DNA of 64,000 nucleotides from contig CAJQUW010015583.1 in NCBI GenBank assembly GCA_907163375.1, positions 1 to 64,000 on the forward strand, given 5' to 3'. Shown piece after piece: positions 20,592-59,761 of this stretch. The notes beneath the pieces are model-generated. The model saw only the letters and a program-made list of their open reading frames with translations. It was not told the origin of the DNA and did not search any database. The position numbers and the translations under genes are program-made. The DNA comes from Prostheceraeus crozeri. Lineage: Eukaryota; Platyhelminthes; Polycladida; Euryleptidae. The first letter of the stretch is position 1. Every line of letters starts with the position of its first letter.

Positions 20592-21352
20592 AGTAGTAAG
20601 TAAAACTCCACTTCTGGATAGCGCAAGATGGCCGCCGTCGCTGACGTCCCCCCCCCTCTGGCACGGCAGAGTGTCGTGGTCGGCCGCCGTGGTGCTTCGT
20701 GTCTGAGTCCCCCCCCCTCTGGAACGACAGAGGTTGTGGTCTGTCGTGGTGTGCCGGCCAGGTGGGTCCACGTTCACAACATGTTCGCTGACTCCCCCCC
20801 CCCTCTGCAACGACAGAGTGTGAGACTCGGGTGAGTTGGTCCGACCGCCTGGTTGACGTGGGCGACCGCCAGGATTAGTCTTGAGGCTATAGTGTGTGAT
20901 GTTTTTCGTGAAATCTGCTGAATGTTGGGTTGTAAAATGGGTTGTTTCGAGTGGAAGGAGTGGTCGGATGAGAAAACGGAGGTCGGATTCGTACTCAGCG
21001 TGAAATTCTGCATCGGTAGGGTGAGTTTCAAGTCAATCGGTGAGAAAAAATTTTCAACATTTTTCGAAAAACGACAGAGTTAAAATTTGGGACGTTTTGG
21101 TGTGTAGCGTCAAAACGAAGCATCGGATGAGAAAACGGAGGTCAGATTCGGATTCAGCGTGAAATTCTGCATCGGTAGGGTGAGTTTCAAGTCAATCGGA
21201 GAGAAAAAATTTTCGGCTGACGTCCCCCCCCTGGACAGCTTGCTTCGATTTTGGCTTCCAGTGGACGGATTTTGTCGTGCGATAGCTCGTTTGAAAGCTA
21301 AGAGTGAGACAAATTCAGTGAAAGAATCGGCTTGTTCCTATCTGTCTTCGTT
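20592..21352 (+). repeat. Polinton left terminal inverted repeat
   Basis: 761 bases nearly identical to the reverse complement of 43873-44632; I notice only a few substitutions and some C-run length changes. The outer 230 bases carry three copies of a module made of CTGA(C/G)(G)T, a run of 7-10 C, then CTCTG-N6-CAGAG. A fourth, weaker C-run module is at 21218-21240. Similarity to the right end continues a further ~25 bases (to ATTTAAGAT) opposite 42966-42998. Confidence 0.95.
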
Positions 21353-25734: not shown

Positions 25735-25950
25735 ATGAAGCAGATGTGTTGCTTGCCATGTAATGAGCCGCCAGAGGTGAATGTCGTTGTCACTTGCACT
25801 TGCTGCGCCAGCTCTCATAATGAAACCCCTAAGCAATGTGAACACGATCGCAAAACCGCTAAAGCTAAATGCTGCAGTTGTTGTAAATGTAGAAAGGGAA
25901 GAAAACAAAAAGATGAGAAGGAGGAAAAAGAGTCAGCCGTCATCGACTGA
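25735..25950 (+). CDS. Cysteine-rich small protein overlapping the integrase
   Basis: 71 residues with 13 Cys, most in pairs: CCLPC, CTCC, CCSCCKC, then a Lys/Glu tail. It starts one base after the upstream stop and ends inside the integrase frame, overlapping by 38 bases if the integrase begins at 25913 or by 170 if it begins at 25781. Many paired Cys suggest a zinc or metal site or a disulfide protein. It looks more like real coding than the frame it overlaps, but no family is recognised. Confidence 0.5.
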   Translation: MKQMCCLPCNEPPEVNVVVTCTCCASSHNETPKQCEHDRKTAKAKCCSCCKCRKGRKQKDEKEEKESAVID

Positions 25951-27001
25951 ACGTTTGAAGTCAATCTATTATGATGTAAAACATCCGGCAGGATTTGCAT
26001 CTATCAAGAAATTATCAAAAGCGAGTGGTCTTCCACAATCACAAGTGAAACGATGGTTAAAGGGTCAGGCTACCTATACACTCCACAAACAAGCGAAAAA
26101 GAAGTACCGCACCCGCCATTATATTGTTCATGACATCGATGAACAGTGGCAAGCAGATTTGTGTGATGTTGCCTCCATTTCAAAACATAACTCGGGCAAT
26201 AATTTTATTTTAACCGTCATTGATATTTTCTCGCGTTATGCGTGGGCTCAACCTTTAAAAACTAAAGAAGGGAAAGGAGTAGCAAAAGCATTCCAAACAA
26301 TTTTTCGAGAAGGTCGCATTCCAAAAAGAATTCAGAGTGATCAAGGAAAAGAGTTTGAAAATCAGCATGTGACAAGATTATTTGAGAGGCATGACATTGA
26401 GTTGTTTAGTGTAAAGAGCGCTTATAAAGCTGCACTCGTTGAACGTTTTAATCGCACATTAAAAAATCGCTTGTGGCGACATTTTACTGCCAACTTGACA
26501 CAAAATTGGACAAAGGTTCTACAAGATACACTCCATGCCTACAATCACTCTATCCATCGTTCTATTGGACTCAGACCAGTAGATGTAAATGCTGACAATG
26601 TAGATAAAGTGCGCGAATCATTCCAACGTAAACGCACTCATGTGAAAAGTGATGTGAAAATTGGCGATAAAGTTCGTATCTCAAAAGTGAAAAGTGTTTT
26701 TGCTAAAGGGTACCTCCCGAATTGGACAGAGGAGGTATTTACAGTATCAAGGATTAATCAAAAAGACTCTCCGACCACCTACAAGTTGAAAGATTACGAT
26801 AATGAAGAAATTGAGGGTAGCTTTTACCGCGATGAGATTGAGGTAGTCACTGAAAGTGAAACATATTTGGTAGAGAAAATCATTCGATGTAAAAAACGGC
26901 AAGGTGAAGAATGGTGTCTTGTTAAATGGACTGGTTATCCTTCAAGTATGAACTCTTGGATGCGTCGTGCCGACATCTTTCATCTAAGTGATCGACAGTG
27001 A
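25913..27001 (+). CDS. Retrovirus-like integrase with chromodomain
   Basis: 362 residues from the ATG at 25913; the frame is open with an earlier ATG at 25781, but that extension is compositionally odd and overlaps the Cys-rich ORF. In 25913 numbering: an N-terminal helical DNA-binding region, then the catalytic core with WQADL (D82), SDQGKEF (D143) and VERFNRTLK (E177), a normal D,D-34-E triad, and near the end a chromodomain (YLVEKIIRCKK to LVKWTGYP to SW). Role: cutting and joining the element ends to target DNA, giving the 6-bp duplication seen here. The chromodomain may guide it to modified histones. Confidence 0.95.
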   Translation: MRRRKKSQPSSTERLKSIYYDVKHPAGFASIKKLSKASGLPQSQVKRWLKGQATYTLHKQAKKKYRTRHYIVHDIDEQWQADLCDVASISKHNSGNNFILTVIDIFSRYAWAQPLKTKEGKGVAKAFQTIFREGRIPKRIQSDQGKEFENQHVTRLFERHDIELFSVKSAYKAALVERFNRTLKNRLWRHFTANLTQNWTKVLQDTLHAYNHSIHRSIGLRPVDVNADNVDKVRESFQRKRTHVKSDVKIGDKVRISKVKSVFAKGYLPNWTEEVFTVSRINQKDSPTTYKLKDYDNEEIEGSFYRDEIEVVTESETYLVEKIIRCKKRQGEEWCLVKWTGYPSSMNSWMRRADIFHLSDRQ

Positions 27002-27500: not shown

Positions 27501-28778
27501 ATGGAGTGTAAAACTTCCGGTTTTTGTTTGTTTGATCAACAAGCCATACAGACAGATATTCTTAGTTCAAGTATTGTAGATTATCATCCTCGAACAGCTG
27601 AGAATGCTGGCCCCATTGAATTTGTTATTCCTGGTGGTAGTGATGACTACATAGATTTGAGTTATGCGATGCTTGATTTGAGGTTTAGAATTCAGCAAGC
27701 AGATGGAACTGCTATTGACGATGCACATAAAGTTGGACTGAACAATTTACCATTGACTACATTACTTCGCGATGTTTCTCTAACGATTGGAGAGCAGCAG
27801 GTGGAAGGTGGTCAAAGCGATTATCCCTATAAATCATATTTCAATCATGTATCACAGTTTCATCCAGCAGCACAAAAAAGTCATATGGAAGCCATGGGAT
27901 GGTACAGAGATGAAGCAGGAAAATTTGATGTTGAAACAAACAGTGGCTTTGTAAAGCGATCTGCTATGATTAAAGATAGTAGAGTATGTCAGCTATATGG
28001 TCCGCTGAATTTAGACTTCTTTAGACAGTCAAAGTTTTTACTCTGTAATACCAGCATGCGACTCAAGCTGACATTGAATAAGCCTGAATTTGCGCTGAAT
28101 GCATTTGCTAAAGTTGACAATTTTAGAATTCATGTGGAAGATATTGCACTTTACATTCGTCGAGTAGTACCGAATCCAAGTGTCATTAGAGGGCATGCTG
28201 AAGGTCTTAACCGCCAAAATGCCATTTACCCCGTTCAGCATACAAAGCTTCTCACCTTTACAATTCCGAAAGATCAAAAGAGTTTCATGAAAGATGGCCT
28301 CTTTCCATCGGAAGCACCGAAGCTCCTCATGGTGGCAATGGTTGAAAATGATGCATTTAATGGTAATATAAAGAAGAATCCTTTCAATTTTAAACACAAT
28401 CAGTTAAGTGAAATTGCTTTACGTGTAAATGGTGTGAGTCATCCTGGTCCACCCTACAAACCAGATTTTGCTTCGGATCAATTTATGCGCAGTTATGTTG
28501 ATTTTATGGATGTCTTTGGCTTTTACAATACGGATGACACCAACGGACTTACTATGAAAGAGTTTAAGAGTGGATATACTATTTATGCATTTGATTTGAC
28601 TGCTGACAGCGATATTAGTGCACCCTATCGTCAAGCGAACGTACCTCATAATATTCGTTTGGATTTGACGTTCAAAAGAACACTAGCTGAGACGATCAAT
28701 GTATTAATTTATGCAGTCTTCGATTCAAATATTGAAATTACAAAGTATCGTGACGTGATTCTTCAGTATAATCGTTAA
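27501..28778 (+). CDS. Major capsid protein (double jelly-roll, hexon type)
   Basis: 425 residues, with the order of motifs seen in the metazoan F54H12.2-like family, which represents Polinton/adintovirus hexon proteins: LFDQQAIQTDI, DYHPRT, PIEFVIPGGSDDYIDL near the start; YPYKSYF; the central NPFNFKHNQL and NGVSHPGPPYKPDF; and FKSGYTIYAFDLT near the end. Role: trimers forming the capsid shell. Its stop overlaps the protease start (TAATG). Full length and intact. Confidence 0.88.
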   Translation: MECKTSGFCLFDQQAIQTDILSSSIVDYHPRTAENAGPIEFVIPGGSDDYIDLSYAMLDLRFRIQQADGTAIDDAHKVGLNNLPLTTLLRDVSLTIGEQQVEGGQSDYPYKSYFNHVSQFHPAAQKSHMEAMGWYRDEAGKFDVETNSGFVKRSAMIKDSRVCQLYGPLNLDFFRQSKFLLCNTSMRLKLTLNKPEFALNAFAKVDNFRIHVEDIALYIRRVVPNPSVIRGHAEGLNRQNAIYPVQHTKLLTFTIPKDQKSFMKDGLFPSEAPKLLMVAMVENDAFNGNIKKNPFNFKHNQLSEIALRVNGVSHPGPPYKPDFASDQFMRSYVDFMDVFGFYNTDDTNGLTMKEFKSGYTIYAFDLTADSDISAPYRQANVPHNIRLDLTFKRTLAETINVLIYAVFDSNIEITKYRDVILQYNR

Positions 28779-39120: not shown

Positions 39121-39155
39121 ACGTTCAAGTTGACTGATAGCAGATTCAACTTAAT

Positions 39156-39222
39156 GATAGTATTCGCCAGTCCGAAGACTGCCCAGGGCAAACCGCGAGG
39201 AGGTTCTATCATGTCTTGCCCC
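39156..39222 (-). ncRNA. HDV-like self-cleaving ribozyme, copy 1
   Basis: Minus-strand 67 nt, cleavage predicted just 5' of 39222. P1: GGGGCAA with TTGCCCT (7 bp with the G-U wobble at the cut site). P2: GATAG with CTATC. P3: ACC/GGT closing the loop TCCTCGC, the same L3 as in HDV. P4: CAGTC-TTCG-GACTG. J4/2 is GCGAATA, holding the catalytic C. This is the nested double pseudoknot of the HDV family, in order and with family lengths. Cutting would fall 52 nt after the stop of the 39274-39528 gene. Part of a ~140-base block (39121-39260) repeated three times. Confidence 0.88.
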
Positions 39223-39273
39223 ATGGTGGCCCTTAAGAGAGCCGATGGTTCGTTCTCGGGGACGTGAATTTGA

Positions 39274-39528
39274 CTATTGACTGGAATAGTCAATAGGTAT
39301 GACGGTTAGGTTCTCGTATACCCTATACCGCCTAAGCCGTGCTGGTGCATCTGGCACCTTTCGGATGCGGGTGGTATTTGGAGTCCATACCTCATCCGTC
39401 CAAACGATCCTCTTGATCTTCCCCTTCTTCTCATCCTCCTCATCCCACTCGTCGAGGATGACGAACTCGGGAATGCCGTTGTCTTCATCAGTGAAGACGG
39501 GAATGTTGTGGGTAGATGTCGCTTCCAT
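39274..39528 (-). CDS. Small accessory protein C
   Basis: 84 residues, acidic in the middle (EWDEEDEKKGK), no recognised family. The own TATA box TATATAAG lies 41 bases upstream (39569-39576); no AATAAA follows, but ribozyme copy 1 does. Frame, promoter and 3' element repeat the layout of the two neighbouring minus genes, which supports it being real. Confidence 0.6.
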   Translation of the reverse strand: MEATSTHNIPVFTDEDNGIPEFVILDEWDEEDEKKGKIKRIVWTDEVWTPNTTRIRKVPDAPARLRRYRVYENLTVIPIDYSSQ

Positions 39529-39568
39529 CGTGACTTCAAATTGAATGAGAAGCGCTACAATCTTCTGG

Positions 39569-39576
39569 CTTATATA
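39569..39576 (-). promoter_or_regulatory. TATA box of gene C
   Basis: TATATAAG on the minus strand, 41 bases before the ATG at 39528 and ~100 bases beyond ribozyme copy 2. Confidence 0.65.
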
Positions 39577-39677
39577 GGGTTTTCAACAATGAATTGCTCA
39601 ACAGCGAATCAGAATGCTTCAGGGATAGCAATCGACTGCATAATGTTCAAGTTGACTGATAGCAGATTCAACTTAAT

Positions 39678-39744
39678 GATAGTATTCGCCAGTCCGAAGA
39701 CTGCCCAGGGCAAACCGCGTGGAGGTTCTATCATGTCTTGCCCC
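39678..39744 (-). ncRNA. HDV-like self-cleaving ribozyme, copy 2
   Basis: Same 67-nt fold as copy 1, cleavage predicted just 5' of 39744, 51 nt past the stop of the 39795-40061 gene. P1, P2, P3, P4 and J4/2 are unchanged; the single difference is in L3 (TCCTCGC becomes TCCACGC), a loop position next to the P1.1 pairing cytosines. Block 39645-39782. Confidence 0.85.
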
Positions 39745-39794
39745 ATGGTGGCCCTTAAGAGAGCCGATGGTTCATTCTCGGGAGTAACGTCATC

Positions 39795-40061
39795 TTACAC
39801 CCTACCAATTCTGCTGAGAGAGTCTTTGACTCTCGCTTTGGTAGCACTGTCGACTTCCACACTGACTGGCACATGGCTAAAAAGTGGAATGTAGCGCCAT
39901 TCCGTTGGATTGACAGCAGTTGCTGTCATCGGATTGCCAATCCGAGCAAGATTATTAAAAACTCTGTCTTGCTCCTCTAGCCTGACAAACTCCTCAAATA
40001 AATTTCGCGGCCTTAACTGCGGTCCGCGAGGAGAGCTGACTTGACTGTTCGGCGTCTGCAT
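39795..40061 (-). CDS. Small accessory protein B
   Basis: 88 residues (starts MQTPNSQVSSPRGPQ; LRPRNLFEEFVRLEEQDR in the middle), no recognised family. Preceded by TATATAAA 32 bases upstream, followed by ribozyme copy 2 and no AATAAA. Confidence 0.6.
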   Translation of the reverse strand: MQTPNSQVSSPRGPQLRPRNLFEEFVRLEEQDRVFNNLARIGNPMTATAVNPTEWRYIPLFSHVPVSVEVDSATKARVKDSLSRIGRV

Positions 40062-40092
40062 GATTGAAATGAAATGAAATGAGAGGCAGTGG

Positions 40093-40100
40093 TTTATATA
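40093..40100 (-). promoter_or_regulatory. TATA box of gene B
   Basis: TATATAAA on the minus strand, 32 bases before the ATG at 40061 and ~55 bases beyond ribozyme copy 3. Confidence 0.65.
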
Positions 40101-40153
40101 CCCCTCTAACGCGACGCAACGTTCAAGTTGACTGATAGCAGATTCAACTTAAT

Positions 40154-40220
40154 GATAGTATTCGCCAGTCCGAAGACTGCCCAGGGCAAACCGCGAGGAG
40201 GTTCTATCATGTCTTGCCCC
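40154..40220 (-). ncRNA. HDV-like self-cleaving ribozyme, copy 3
   Basis: Same 67-nt fold and L3 as copy 1; cleavage predicted just 5' of 40220, downstream of the 40358-41560 gene. The bases before the cut differ (CTA here, CAT in copies 1 and 2) while the ribozyme itself is unchanged, as expected if only the RNA fold is under selection. Block 40120-40258. Confidence 0.88.
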
Positions 40221-40357
40221 TAGGTGGCCCTTAAGAGAGCCGATGGTTCGTTCTCGGGAGTAAATTGATGGGGTGGTGAAGGCAGGCAAAGATCTGCAAT
40301 GAAAATGATATGTATTAGAATAGGATATACTATCTTATTTGCTTTTCACTTACCAAG

Positions 40358-41560
40358 TTAGTCATCCTTAGGCAGTCTCGCGGGCTTCCTGATTGAAAAT
40401 TTGTGCAGATGCCCGCGCATTCTTAGTGTGGCGTGGAGGCATTTCTTACTCGGATGTCCATGATAGCATACAATACTTTCGTCCAGACTTTTATTGACGA
40501 GGACTTCGCCGGCCAGATGGTTATCCCGAATAGGGATGTGGAACTCAAACAAACGATCCTCATTCACACGTTCCCACTCATCCCTCATGCGCTCCAACTT
40601 CTCACACGCCTGCCTCTCATCACCCCGCCGAGCCACAGTCCTCTCCAACTCAACATTCCTCGCTCTCAACACACTCATCTCCTTCATCATCTCCTCAAAC
40701 TTCGCTTCTGCCTCTCCCATTCTCCTCTCCGCAGCACTCGCCCTCTTCTCACACTCATCATTCTTGTCTTCCAACACTCGCACATTCTCCTTCAACTCTT
40801 TCACAACACGCCTCATACGGATATTCTCATCTGCCACCTCCTTACATTTCACCTCCTTCATTTTCAGCTCACTCAACTCACTCAACGTTCTCTCATTCAC
40901 CTTCTTCAAACTTTCGTAGCGATCTACCAACAAAGCATGTGCCGCTTGCTGCGACACATGCTTCTTTTCCATGTCCTCATCCCACCGCGCCGACTGCTTC
41001 CGTACCCCACCACCCTTCACTATTGGGGAAGATGAGCTCTTCGGGGGGTCGGTGATGACGATATTGGACACCTCCGATGACGAAGAGCTCAACTTCCTCA
41101 CACACTTCCTCACTCGCTCCCTATCCAAATCCACATCATCCTCATCATCACTCTCAAACACTCTCTTCCGCCACTTGTCAGCCTTCAAACCGGCCACAGC
41201 ATTCTCTACCTCATTCTCCACAGCATTCCCACTAGCATTCTCCACAGCATTCCCACTAGCATTCTCAACAACATTCTTGGCCTCTTTCCCCAACATTCGC
41301 TCCTTCTCAGCATTCATCAACTCCACAAATCTCAAATCGGTCACCAACCCTCCTGTGCACTCACCATGCCTCAAATAAAACTCGGCCTCCTGCCCAACAA
41401 CCAACAGCACCCTGCACTTCACACAGGCAACCCTACTCAGGATAACCATGTGGTCGGCCCCTGCCTTCTTGATGTGGTCCTTGAGACCGTCTCGGCGGTT
41501 GATCCGACCGCACACACACATTTTGATGTGAAATTTTTTGTTTTTGTCGTTATTGACCAT
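40358..41560 (-). CDS. Zinc-knuckle coiled-coil accessory protein A
   Basis: 400 residues. Residues ~15-70 have C-x-C, H, then C-x2-C and a late H/C (CVCGRINRRDGLKDH, CVKCRVLLV, RHGEC), a possible zinc-binding head. A short repeat (ASGNAVEN twice) and an acidic stretch follow; residues ~195-335 are a long charged coiled coil; the C-terminus has CYHGHPSKKCLHATLRMRGH. No enzyme motif. Codon use is GC-richer than in the core genes. A small intron (40353-40294) appears just after the stop, and the 5' region may hold another (42473-41572) reaching a TATA box at 42515. No AATAAA; ribozyme copy 3 follows. Confidence 0.75.
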   Translation of the reverse strand: MVNNDKNKKFHIKMCVCGRINRRDGLKDHIKKAGADHMVILSRVACVKCRVLLVVGQEAEFYLRHGECTGGLVTDLRFVELMNAEKERMLGKEAKNVVENASGNAVENASGNAVENEVENAVAGLKADKWRKRVFESDDEDDVDLDRERVRKCVRKLSSSSSEVSNIVITDPPKSSSSPIVKGGGVRKQSARWDEDMEKKHVSQQAAHALLVDRYESLKKVNERTLSELSELKMKEVKCKEVADENIRMRRVVKELKENVRVLEDKNDECEKRASAAERRMGEAEAKFEEMMKEMSVLRARNVELERTVARRGDERQACEKLERMRDEWERVNEDRLFEFHIPIRDNHLAGEVLVNKSLDESIVCYHGHPSKKCLHATLRMRGHLHKFSIRKPARLPKDD

Positions 41561-57314: not shown

Positions 57315-59761
57315 AATAAAGATCAACAATGTTATGAACTGTTTCTTTCTTCTTGGCTGCGGTACTTAGACGATTGCTTTATCATTTGGTACGAATCGTT
57401 TGGTGATGTCAATGAGTTTCTTTCTTTCCTGAACACTTTAGATTCAAAAATTAAATTCACTTCAGAGATCAATTCAGAAAGACTCAACTTTTTAGATGTA
57501 TTAGTTTATAAATTAGTTAAATTAGTATTAGTTATGCTAAACAAAACTAAAAAATTAGAAAATGTACCGAAAAGGAAGAGTAATGTAAGCGGGGAGGAGA
57601 AAATTGCATTGAAAAACCTTCGTGATCTAGAGCATATACATATAACAAAAGCCGACAAAGGTGGATCGTTCGTGATAATGAACTATGAGGATTATAAGAA
57701 TTACATCTACGATGAGCATTTAAATGACACGAATACCTATAGAGCCATTTTTATATATGATGTTAATAGCACACTAAATCTTATCAAAAGATACTGTAAT
57801 GATTTCAGCCAGTGTTTAGCGACTAAAGAGACTAAAGAGACTAAGTATCTTAGTAAGTTTAGTGGAGATATCCCTTTTATATACGGACTGCCAAAAATAC
57901 ATAAAATTGCGAGCTTACATGTGGATTTAGAATCGATGGATAAATATGGCTACGCTAAAACCAACCTACCAGAAAATTTAAAATTACGCCCTGTCATATC
58001 AAGCGCTAAAGGGCCTACTAATCACCTGAGCTTCTTCTTAGATGAAATTTTGAAGCCTTTAACTTTGAAGCTTCCCAGCTTTTGTAGAGATAGCTCTCAT
58101 TTCATCTCCAAGTTACCAACATTTGTGGAAAATCTTTTGATGTAACGTCTCTATACACAACTATTGATAATGATTTAGGACTTACAGCAATTGAATTTTG
58201 GATAGAAAAGTACAGAGATTTGATCGAAGAAAGATATACAACTAATTTCATATTGAAAGGAATCTCTATTGTCTTGAACAATAATTTCTTCAGTTTTGAG
58301 GACAGGTTTTTCCTTCAAATTTCTGGTACCGCTATGGGCACAAGACTCGCCCCTACATACGCATCATTATCAGTTGGCTTCCTGGAAGAGAAAATGTACG
58401 CCCATATGAAAAATATTTTGAATGTAAATGATTTTGATTGCTTTCACATGCAGTGGGTGAGGTACTTGGATGACTGTTTTGTGATTTGGAGGGACTCGTT
58501 TGGGGACATAGAAGAGTTTCATGAATTTGTGAATAATATGAATAGCAAGATAAATTTTACAATGGAACAGAGATAAATTGAATTTTTTGGACGTAACAGT
58601 TTACAAAGAAAATAACAAAGTTGAGACTGACATATTCTATAAACCCACGGATGGTCATAACTATGCCCCGTTTAGTTTCGGCCATCCTAATCATGTCGTT
58701 CGTAATATTCCATACACCCTTGCCAACAGAGTAAGCAGAATAGTCAGGTATGAGAATCTTCCAGGTTTTTGGTGCTGAAAAGACCATTCTCGTAATTCAC
58801 CTAAATATGCAATAAAAAAGTATACCCCCTCCGAAAGTTAGATTATTTAAAAAACTTCCATTTTTTCGCCCTAGCCAACTATTTTTCTTACATTAGATTA
58901 TGCCAAATATCAATAAAAAGGTCACAAAAATTTCAAGACCAGACCCCCTTCGCAAACTTGCTCGCTCGTTCCGGGTTTTTTATTTGCCCTCAATCTCATG
59001 CCTGAATCGAAATCTGAAAGAAAATTAGTACCTTTCAATGAACTGAAAAATCAACTACTTGCCCTTGGCTATCCAATGCCTCTAATCAATGATTCGATAT
59101 CAAAAGCAAAAAGTGAGATCACTAGGGTGAAGAAAAACCAACATTCCAGTTTAACGATTCCCTTTATTTCCACATATAACCCGAAAAATCCGAAACTTTT
59201 CCGGGACGTTATTAATCCAATCTTCACTGGCTTAAAAGTGCATCCGACTTTCAGAGACTACAGAATAAGACGCACATACCGTCAGCCTCCTTCACTACTC
59301 CGGCAATTGAGAAAAAATAACTGGAAGACATTAGTGGGTGCTACAAAATGTGGCTATGGTAGATGTGAATGCTGTCATTACATCATCGAAGTTGCAGTGT
59401 TTTCTTTTAAATTTGGGGACGAAATCAAACATTTTCACGTAAAAGCAAATATGAACTGCTATTCAAAAGACCTGATTTATGTTATGAGATGTCGTGGTTG
59501 TGAAGAACTTTAGGCTATGTAGGGCAAACAGGAGATAGCTTGAGATCACGTGTAAGAGTCCATCGACAACAAGTAAGAGATCATAAATATCAAGTATTGC
59601 ATGTAAGTAAGCATATCTCCTCTTGTTCAAAAGGTAATGATCCCCCATTTTATGTCATGCCTATTTTGAAATTACCAAGTGGAAGTAACAAAATAATGCG
59701 GGAATCGAAAGAGAAAATGTGTATGGAGATTCTGAAACCAAAATTAAATAAGGATAATTAA
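57315..59761 (+). pseudogene. Penelope-like element (RT plus GIY-YIG), rearranged
   Basis: 57315-57525 encodes a piece around the catalytic box (RYLDDCFIIWYESFGDV) of one copy, which then jumps at ~57530 into the N-terminal region of a second: HIHITKADKGGSFVIM, GLPKIHK, LRPVISS, (frameshift ~58145) ISGTAMGTRLAPTYASL, RYLDDCFVIW, (frameshift ~58575) LNFLDVTVY and YKPTDGHNY. A ~200-base insertion with stops follows (58776-58990), then PLE linker sequence and a GIY-YIG domain with one more break (~59512; VGQTGDSLRSRVRVHRQQ after it). The partial tandem order is typical of Penelope-like insertions. Non-functional. Confidence 0.88.

Follow-up and report, generated by a model that had tools for sequence, protein, structure and literature searches.

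Histone-type stem-loops joined to hepatitis delta virus-like ribozymes as candidate self-processing 3′ ends of flatworm Polinton genes

Self-cleaving ribozymes are common in genomes, and few have a clear job. What such ribozymes might do for a mobile element is the question raised by a 64,000-nucleotide (nt) stretch of the polyclad flatworm Prostheceraeus crozeri (GenBank assembly GCA_907163375.1, contig CAJQUW010015583.1, positions 1–64,000, forward strand; hereafter the window), which carries a Polinton, a Maverick/adintovirus-like element. A first-pass annotation had placed three hepatitis delta virus (HDV)-like ribozymes in this element as a gene-linked set. We find that each of them lies 3′ of one of three Polinton genes (A, B and C), that this linkage is conserved, and that each ribozyme is directly preceded by a stem-loop of the kind found at the ends of replication-dependent histone messenger RNAs (mRNAs). 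The stem-loop, the placement at gene 3′ ends and the genome-wide scale of the arrangement were absent from that annotation and are the more surprising part. We consider it likely that the stem-loop–ribozyme cassette is a self-processing, histone-type, non-polyadenylated mRNA 3′ end of Polinton genes, with the ribozyme replacing the U7 small nuclear ribonucleoprotein (snRNP) and CPSF73.

Three ribozymes behind three Polinton genes

The ribozymes lie on the minus strand at 40152–40220 (ribozyme 1), 39676–39744 (ribozyme 2) and 39154–39222 (ribozyme 3), each within a 143-nt repeat (40258–40116, 39782–39640 and 39260–39118; copies 97–99% identical to the reference copy). The sites first annotated are real, and the 67-nt length given for them was too short: P2, described as 5 base pairs (bp), extends over 7 bp (ATGATAG/CTATCAT) at all three sites, so each ribozyme measures 69 nt. 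The remaining anatomy was parsed at every site as it had been described, with a 7-bp P1 opening on a G–U pair (GGGGCAA/TTGCCCT), a P3 of ACC/GGT with an HDV-type L3 loop (TCC[T/A]CGC; TCCACGC in ribozyme 2), a P4 capped by TTCG (CAGTC-TTCG-GACTG) and the motif GCGAAT within a J4/2 of GCGAATA; the joining stretch J is GGG. Each site thereby has the nested double pseudoknot with P1–P4 and a G–U first P1 pair, and J4/2 carries a C followed by a purine and an A, a C that we take to be the candidate catalytic residue. HDV-like ribozymes cleave 5′ of P1, and the predicted cuts fall 5′ of G 40220, G 39744 and G 39222.

Within the window, a 48-nt ribozyme stretch searched with up to three mismatches matches just these three sites (shuffle expectation 0), and a loose pseudoknot descriptor, a check that the first-pass annotation had proposed, recovered all three along with four unrelated matches in 128 kb scanned. 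With relaxed thresholds, two Rfam models align over their full length at all three sites, RF00094 at 25.9–27.5 bits and RF02682 at 26.5–26.8 bits (26.4 and 26.5 for ribozyme 1, 25.9 and 26.8 for ribozyme 2, and 27.5 and 26.5 for ribozyme 3, all sub-threshold). Pseudoknot-free thermodynamic folding gives little information (z of −1.05 for the ribozyme, −1.35 for the repeat and −2.08 for the hairpin downstream of the ribozyme).

All three genes are also on the minus strand. Gene A (40358–41560, TAA stop at 40360–40358) encodes 400 amino acids (aa) and has homologues P0001 (92%) and P0002 (73%). Gene B (39795–40061, 88 aa) has a TATA-like box near 40100 and homologues P0123 (95%) and P0124 (70%), and gene C (39274–39528), which encodes an acidic protein of 84 aa, has a TATA-like box near 39576 and homologues in related elements. 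They are single open reading frames (ORFs), save for a 61-nt intron-like stretch behind gene A (GGTAAGT...TTGCAG, 40354–40294), and a Pfam search gave no histone match for them.

A histone-type stem-loop beside each ribozyme

Between each stop codon and ribozyme stands a minus-strand stem-loop with a 6-bp GGYYYU/ARRRCC stem, a 4-nt loop and an ACC 3′ flank, and the predicted ribozyme cut lies 5 nt 3′ of its end. Stem-loop 1 (40226–40241, GGCTCT-CTTA-AGGGCC) is separated from the predicted cleavage site by ACCTA and scores 18.9 bits against RF00032; stem-loops 2 (39750–39765) and 3 (39228–39243) are followed by ACCAT and score 18.1 bits each, all three sub-threshold. The pattern GGYYYT-NNNN-ARRRCCAC with six pairs finds these three sites alone in 128 kb (both window strands). 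It matched nothing in 300 Markov sequences of 64 kb, and about 1e-5 matches per 143 nt are expected in sequences of the repeat's own composition. Stem-loop 1 does form when the 143-nt repeat is folded as a whole.

The host genome (2.05 Gb, 14,165 contigs) encodes an SLBP RNA-binding domain, in two exons on one contig (52.7 and 32.9 bits), and contains at least 150 histone-fold matches. SLBP binds the histone stem-loop. At 4 of 30 fetched histone-fold loci, an H3-like ORF is followed, 26–30 nt past its stop, by GGCCCT-CTTA-AGGGCC, which differs from the window stem-loop by one base and is identical to it in the CTTA loop and 3′ arm. Genes B and C fall in the same range, with 29 and 30 nt, respectively, from stop to stem-loop; behind gene A the distance is 116 nt, including the intron-like stretch. 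In Caenorhabditis elegans, CTTA loops occur in four H2B genes and histone mRNAs end 3–6 nt past the hairpin, as passages of PMC1924863 describe.

Stem-loop and ribozyme are coupled across the genome

A 19-mer of the stem-loop (up to two mismatches) has 16,248 sites in the genome (control 18) and a 30-mer of the ribozyme (up to three mismatches) has 15,962 (control 0). Thirty fetched loci contain 80 exact stem-loops, which fall into 28 distinct contexts, each with the ribozyme behind it. On contigs C5–C88, 82 exact ribozyme sites are listed, chosen blind to the stem-loop, and at 74 of them the exact stem-loop stands at the expected offset (1 nt shorter in one case); reciprocally, 74 of the 99 exact stem-loop sites listed have the exact ribozyme beside them. 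Six of the eight ribozymes that lack the exact stem-loop (L235, L236, L239–L242) differ by one or two bases in the stem-loop or the sequence flanking it, and the remaining two (L237, L238) have a 15-nt hairpin.

Approached from the histone side, the coupling was found again. A whole-genome search with RF00032, in which the 75 best of 295,389 first candidates were scored, gave 52 matches, nine of them above the cut-off. An HDV-like ribozyme, in some cases decayed (for example, L160), lies behind 28 of the 30 matches read, including seven of the nine above the cut-off, and seven second-type cassettes (defined below) reach 34.3–36.1 bits (gathering score 34). Upstream of the two top matches, L155 and L156, no histone ORF was found, and neither has a ribozyme. 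A first structural parse left 64 stem-loop pattern matches without a parsed ribozyme; most were the same palindromes read on the opposite strand, and the rest were parser-missed or decayed cassettes, host histone loci, L155/L156 and one unrelated window match.

Other searches returned little. A nucleotide similarity search of the 143-nt repeat against its own genome gave no matches, the repeat itself included, probably since it is made of words that occur too often. Pattern scans of IMG/VR (at least 120 stretches, then three) gave matches that an eye-read descriptor could not separate from chance; the three stretches of the second scan look like coding phage DNA and were rejected as ribozyme candidates. 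A capsid-protein search found no relatives in IMG/VR and one weak fragment in GTDB contigs. All comparative DNA evidence therefore comes from one genome.

Two element types conserve pairing rather than sequence

Cassettes occur in two types of element: the window type, represented by the genes in loci L125–L154, and a second type, represented by those in L155–L184 and known from 3-kb loci. Second-type cassettes follow homologues of gene A with 23–28% identity (22 distinct tblastn matches that reach the C terminus) and homologues of gene B with 44–61% identity (local tblastn). The distance from gene B stop to hairpin is 27–29 nt in all eight window-type copies; in the second type, where 14 of 21 copies could be parsed, it is 29–31 nt. 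The second-type stem-loops read GGCTCT-TTTA-AGAGCC, often preceded by CAAAC, or GGTCTT-TTTA-AAGACC, and their ribozymes have a P1 that is mostly GGAGCAA/TTGCTCT or GGGGCAA/TTGCCCT, a P4 of CAGAC-TTCG-GTCTG and a J4/2 of ACTGAAT. The 3′ part of this ribozyme has about 1,300 genome sites (control 0).

For covariation we kept 96 of 115 anchored candidates as HDV-like and dropped 19. The third pair of P1 is GC in 59 copies and AT in 25 (87 of 96 paired; shuffled mean 71.6), the first pair of P2 is AT in 50 and GC in 37 (90 of 96 paired; shuffled mean 69.9), and the fourth pair of P4 is AT in 65 and TA in 29 (94 of 96 paired; shuffled mean 54.2). The stem-loop covaries too: in 79 perfect copies, stem pair 3 is CG 59 times and TA 19 times, pair 4 is TA 31, TG 29 and CG 19 times, and pair 5 is CG 60 and TA 19 times. 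J4/2 reads GCGAATA in 29 copies, ACTGAAT in 66 and ACTCAAT in one, although the C in all 96 is not an independent observation because the search anchor required it. Many of the 79 perfect copies had been retrieved through their stem-loop, and all 79 were chosen because they pair, so the samples drawn blind to the stem-loop weigh more.

The HDV-like identity given in the first-pass annotation is supported by the matching anatomy, by sub-threshold Rfam alignments at all three sites and by between-family compensatory changes in three helices (P1, P2 and P4); the compensatory changes across the 96 distinct copies back the fold much better than the Rfam scores do. Plus-strand coding was rejected as the cause of the conservation, as plus-strand ORFs of at least 80 aa cover copies 2 and 3 and not copy 1, and as the second type conserves pairing, not sequence. 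The spacer between stem-loop and first ribozyme G in the 79 perfect copies is 5 nt in 46, 4 nt in 27, 2 nt in four and 6 nt in two.

The 16-nt stem-loop gives way, in subfamilies of the window type as well as the second, to a hairpin of 15 nt (such as GGYCU-UUAAG-AGRCC or GGTCC-TTATG-RGGCC), with ACC and the ribozyme still behind it (L215, L220, L222, L223, L228–L230, L232 and L233; L237 and L238).

The same gene carries a cassette or a poly(A) signal

Of 60 distinct gene A and gene B copies, 55 match the ribozyme pattern within 230 nt past the stop; in the other five the ribozyme is variant or decayed, and the L158 reading frame continues into it. In none of the 60 does AATAAA occur within 105 nt past the stop or before the ribozyme. 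Gene C of the window type has the ribozyme in nine of nine copies and AATAAA within 300 nt in none. Its homologues in the second type, 33–56% identical and on the opposite strand, have the ribozyme in 0 of 18 and AATAAA in 18 of 18; in 17 the signal stands past the stop-codon start, and the remaining one counts only if the three bases ahead of the stop are included. One and the same gene therefore bears the cassette in one type and a poly(A) signal in the other. In the window itself, AATAAA is absent for 939–2023 nt downstream of genes A, B and C, and within 80 nt behind the ribozyme it is found in 0 of 24 window-type copies and 1 of 20 second-type gene A copies.

Proposed mechanism

We propose that a Polinton gene is transcribed past its stop codon, through the histone-type stem-loop and into the HDV-like ribozyme, which would cleave at its own 5′ side, 4–5 nt past the stem-loop in most copies. 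The resulting mRNA would end as a replication-dependent histone mRNA does, with the stem-loop, ACC and a few further nucleotides and without poly(A). By cutting beside the stem-loop, the ribozyme would thus stand in for U7 snRNP and CPSF73. Host SLBP would be able to bind such an mRNA, which could then be exported, translated and stabilized in step with S phase. That Polinton transcripts are cut in cells, are bound by SLBP and come under S-phase control is what we infer. A broader claim, which we favour on balance and hold less firmly than the proposal itself, is that this constitutes a third route to animal mRNA 3′ ends, in which a mobile DNA element or virus would make self-cleaved histone-type mRNAs with a copied host stem-loop and SLBP-borne S-phase control, without U7 snRNP, CPSF73 or poly(A) polymerase.

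Evidence against the proposal and alternative explanations

A number of results weigh against this proposal. The first-pass annotation had named an Rfam covariance search as a check and the lack of a hit as grounds for refutation; at gathering thresholds (RF00094, 50; RF02682, 44) none of the three sites matches, and as matches are sub-threshold only, the outcome is ambiguous by that condition, the gathering score being a library cut-off and no feature of the molecule. A whole-genome RF00094 search also gave nothing at E ≤ 0.001. The window stem-loops likewise score 18.1–18.9 bits against an RF00032 cut-off of 34 (E of 0.04–0.08 for 1.2 kb and all families), and 44 nt around stem-loop 1, folded alone, favour another structure (z −0.17). 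The pattern search recovered the host stem-loop in just those 4 of 30 histone loci.

SLBP recognition raises further doubts. Its minimal site comprises the stem-loop, two 5′ adenines and one 3′ adenine, according to part of PMC10388802; the 5′ flank of the window stem-loops, CCATC, lacks the two adenines and the 3′ adenine is present. Host H3 flanks are richer in A (CAAAC in two of four, also AAAAC and GAACC), as are the many second-type copies with CAAAC, and AA touches the stem in no copy, host H3 and second type included. In a second-type sample drawn blind to the stem-loop (n = 20), eight copies have a perfect 16-nt stem-loop, two have one change, nine have the 15-nt hairpin and one is degenerate, and the 15-nt hairpin may lack SLBP binding. 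One subgroup (L166, L168–L170 and L178) combines a P1 mismatch with a 2-nt spacer and may cut poorly.

The evidence from poly(A) signals also has two sides. AATAAA lies within 80 nt behind the ribozyme in 15 of 20 second-type gene B copies (for example, L158, L161 and L165), so those genes could also be polyadenylated. In ten of 16 other window ORFs tested, too, no AATAAA follows in the 100 nt past the stop, and its absence after genes A, B and C is therefore weak evidence. The gene C exchange may be a single event and is accompanied by strand reversal; copies related by descent count as types, not as independent events.

One alternative is the idea that the hairpin serves just to insulate the ribozyme from upstream RNA and resembles the histone element by coincidence, the cassette ending the mRNA without SLBP or working beside a poly(A) signal behind it. 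The shorter hairpin in 9 of the 20 blind second-type copies and in L237/L238 of the first type is what this idea would lead one to expect, as is AATAAA past the ribozyme in 15 of the 20 second-type gene B copies. We nevertheless regard it as unlikely: the GGYYYU/ARRRCC stem, 4-nt loop and ACC flank match both the histone element and the host H3 stem-loops, the CUUA loop is common to host H3 and the window type, the CAAAC flank frequent in the second type is histone-like as well, and in 73 of 79 perfect copies the predicted cut lies 4–5 nt past the stem, where histone mRNAs end.

The ribozyme might instead serve the gene downstream, trimming read-through RNA to give the following transcript its 5′ end and staying attached to that transcript, as is established for HDV-like ribozymes at the 5′ ends of R2 and L1Tc (in passages of PMC8256844). 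Cassettes 1 and 2 do lie ahead of genes B and C, yet both genes have their own TATA-like boxes between ribozyme and ATG, and behind cassette 3 no same-strand ORF of at least 80 aa is listed before the start of the polymerase-like gene near 37.5 kb. A histone stem-loop can be understood only as part of the RNA 5′ of the cut, and its distance from the gene B stop is 27–31 nt in 22 of 29 copies (all that could be parsed); we therefore think a downstream role improbable. Still more remote is the notion that the 143-nt repeat has spread without function by gene conversion or transposition, its copies being alike through recent copying. The three window copies are indeed 97–99% identical and copies are very many; however, two element types whose gene A proteins are 23–28% identical retain hairpin and ribozyme behind corresponding genes, their pairing preserved by compensatory changes, and at gene C a poly(A) signal can take the place of the module. 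A self-processed, histone-type 3′ end thus remains the reading that we prefer.

The Polinton and its neighbourhood

The element occupies 20592–44632 (24 kb) and is bounded by terminal inverted repeats, at 20592–20716/44508–44632 (125 bp, 100% identical) and 20796–21231/43996–44431 (436 bp, 99%). A plus-strand integrase (25781–27001) matches rve (PF00665, 1.3e-10) and a chromodomain (PF00385, 6.4e-07). The plus-strand gene at 27501–28778 is identified as that of a double jelly-roll major capsid protein by its homologues and predicted fold: a search of public proteins from genomes and metagenomes found 258 homologues (the best 120 of 258 listed), and the AlphaFold2 model (mean predicted local distance difference test score, 84.7) matches the capsids of Sputnik (3j26, E 7.8e-16), PBCV-1 and mavirus. 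A protease-like protein falls just under the cut-off for PF02902 (Ulp1; E 0.001, 19.4 bits, cut-off 20.7). The 1266-aa ORF has what we take to be polymerase-B-like motifs, which the libraries did not confirm; searches of Pfam, PHROGs and sequences of the Protein Data Bank (PDB) gave no PolB match and instead an Endonuclease_7 and a C2H2 finger. Inverted repeats, integrase and modelled capsid fold support the Polinton setting assigned in the first-pass annotation. One capsid homologue (P0004), 86% identical to that of the window, is filed under a 'Pseudomonadota' metagenome-assembled genome and is probably contamination by eukaryotic DNA.

Behind each ribozyme is a further minus-strand hairpin, at 40123–40150, 39647–39674 and 39125–39152. 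They have a CTG-CTAT-CAG apex, and a similar hairpin lies behind second-type gene B cassettes (L157 and L169). Upstream of gene A, two minus-strand repeats of 268 nt (42241–41974 and 41914–41647; 97% identical) have a 5′ hairpin with the same apex; each folds at about −78 kcal/mol (a value without shuffle control), with an 11-bp long-range stem. They match no Rfam family above its cut-off and are possibly a structured element RNA. The minus-strand stretch 39098–38880 behind cassette 3 has CTTT-GAC--GGCGTTCCTGT in common with these repeats; a fold of −81 kcal/mol in 291 nt was obtained there, and similar sequence lies behind second-type gene B cassettes (L157 and L169). Elsewhere, L130–L133 (contig C8) form one element with four cassettes in which gene C and its cassette are tandemly duplicated, so the gene–cassette unit looks modular. 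In the window at 57534–59513 (plus strand), ORFs look by eye like a Penelope-like reverse transcriptase.

Comparison with known systems

If the proposal is right, a ribozyme can in nature take over from an entire protein–RNA processing machine, a DNA transposon or virus imitates the way histone mRNAs are made, and there may be a link between Polinton genes and host DNA replication. The job of the cassette would be readable from sequence, as the predicted cut falls at the would-be histone mRNA end.

The element itself is of a familiar kind, sharing with Polintons/Mavericks and adintoviruses its terminal inverted repeats, integrase, double jelly-roll capsid protein and protease-like and large polymerase-like genes; among the matches listed in searches of the open-licence PMC literature, we found no ribozyme or histone-type 3′ ends for these elements. 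Ribozyme and stem-loop, too, are of known kinds, and it is their pairing as a mobile 3′-end module for which we found no natural precedent (among the matches listed in that literature, no natural pair of histone stem-loop and HDV-like ribozyme). The ribozyme has the nested double pseudoknot, G–U P1 start, L3 TCCNCG and J4/2 C common to those of HDV, R2, L1Tc and Chilo iridescent virus. Whereas the HDV-like ribozymes of R2 and L1Tc make 5′ ends (PMC8256844, in part), those described here lie at gene 3′ ends, in a DNA transposon or virus-like element and beside a hairpin.

Replication-dependent histone mRNA ends resemble the cassette in stem-loop, loop, 3′ flank, stop-to-hairpin distance and a predicted end 3–6 nt past the hairpin, and differ in that a downstream element and U7 snRNP act where the Polinton cassette has a ribozyme. 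Even the poly(A) signal behind second-type gene B has a counterpart, in that C. elegans histone genes keep one behind the hairpin at which their mRNA ends (parts of PMC1924863). The closest parallel is man-made. In passages of PMC4456446, an engineered reporter with a histone stem-loop followed by an HDV ribozyme has a stabilized non-polyadenylated 3′ end in human cells, and the stem-loop on unpolyadenylated RNA restores the RNA level and not last-intron splicing. In that reporter, stem-loop and ribozyme follow one another as they do in the Polinton; here the pair is natural, amplified and conserved, and nature, if the proposal holds, reached a device that was also constructed in the laboratory.

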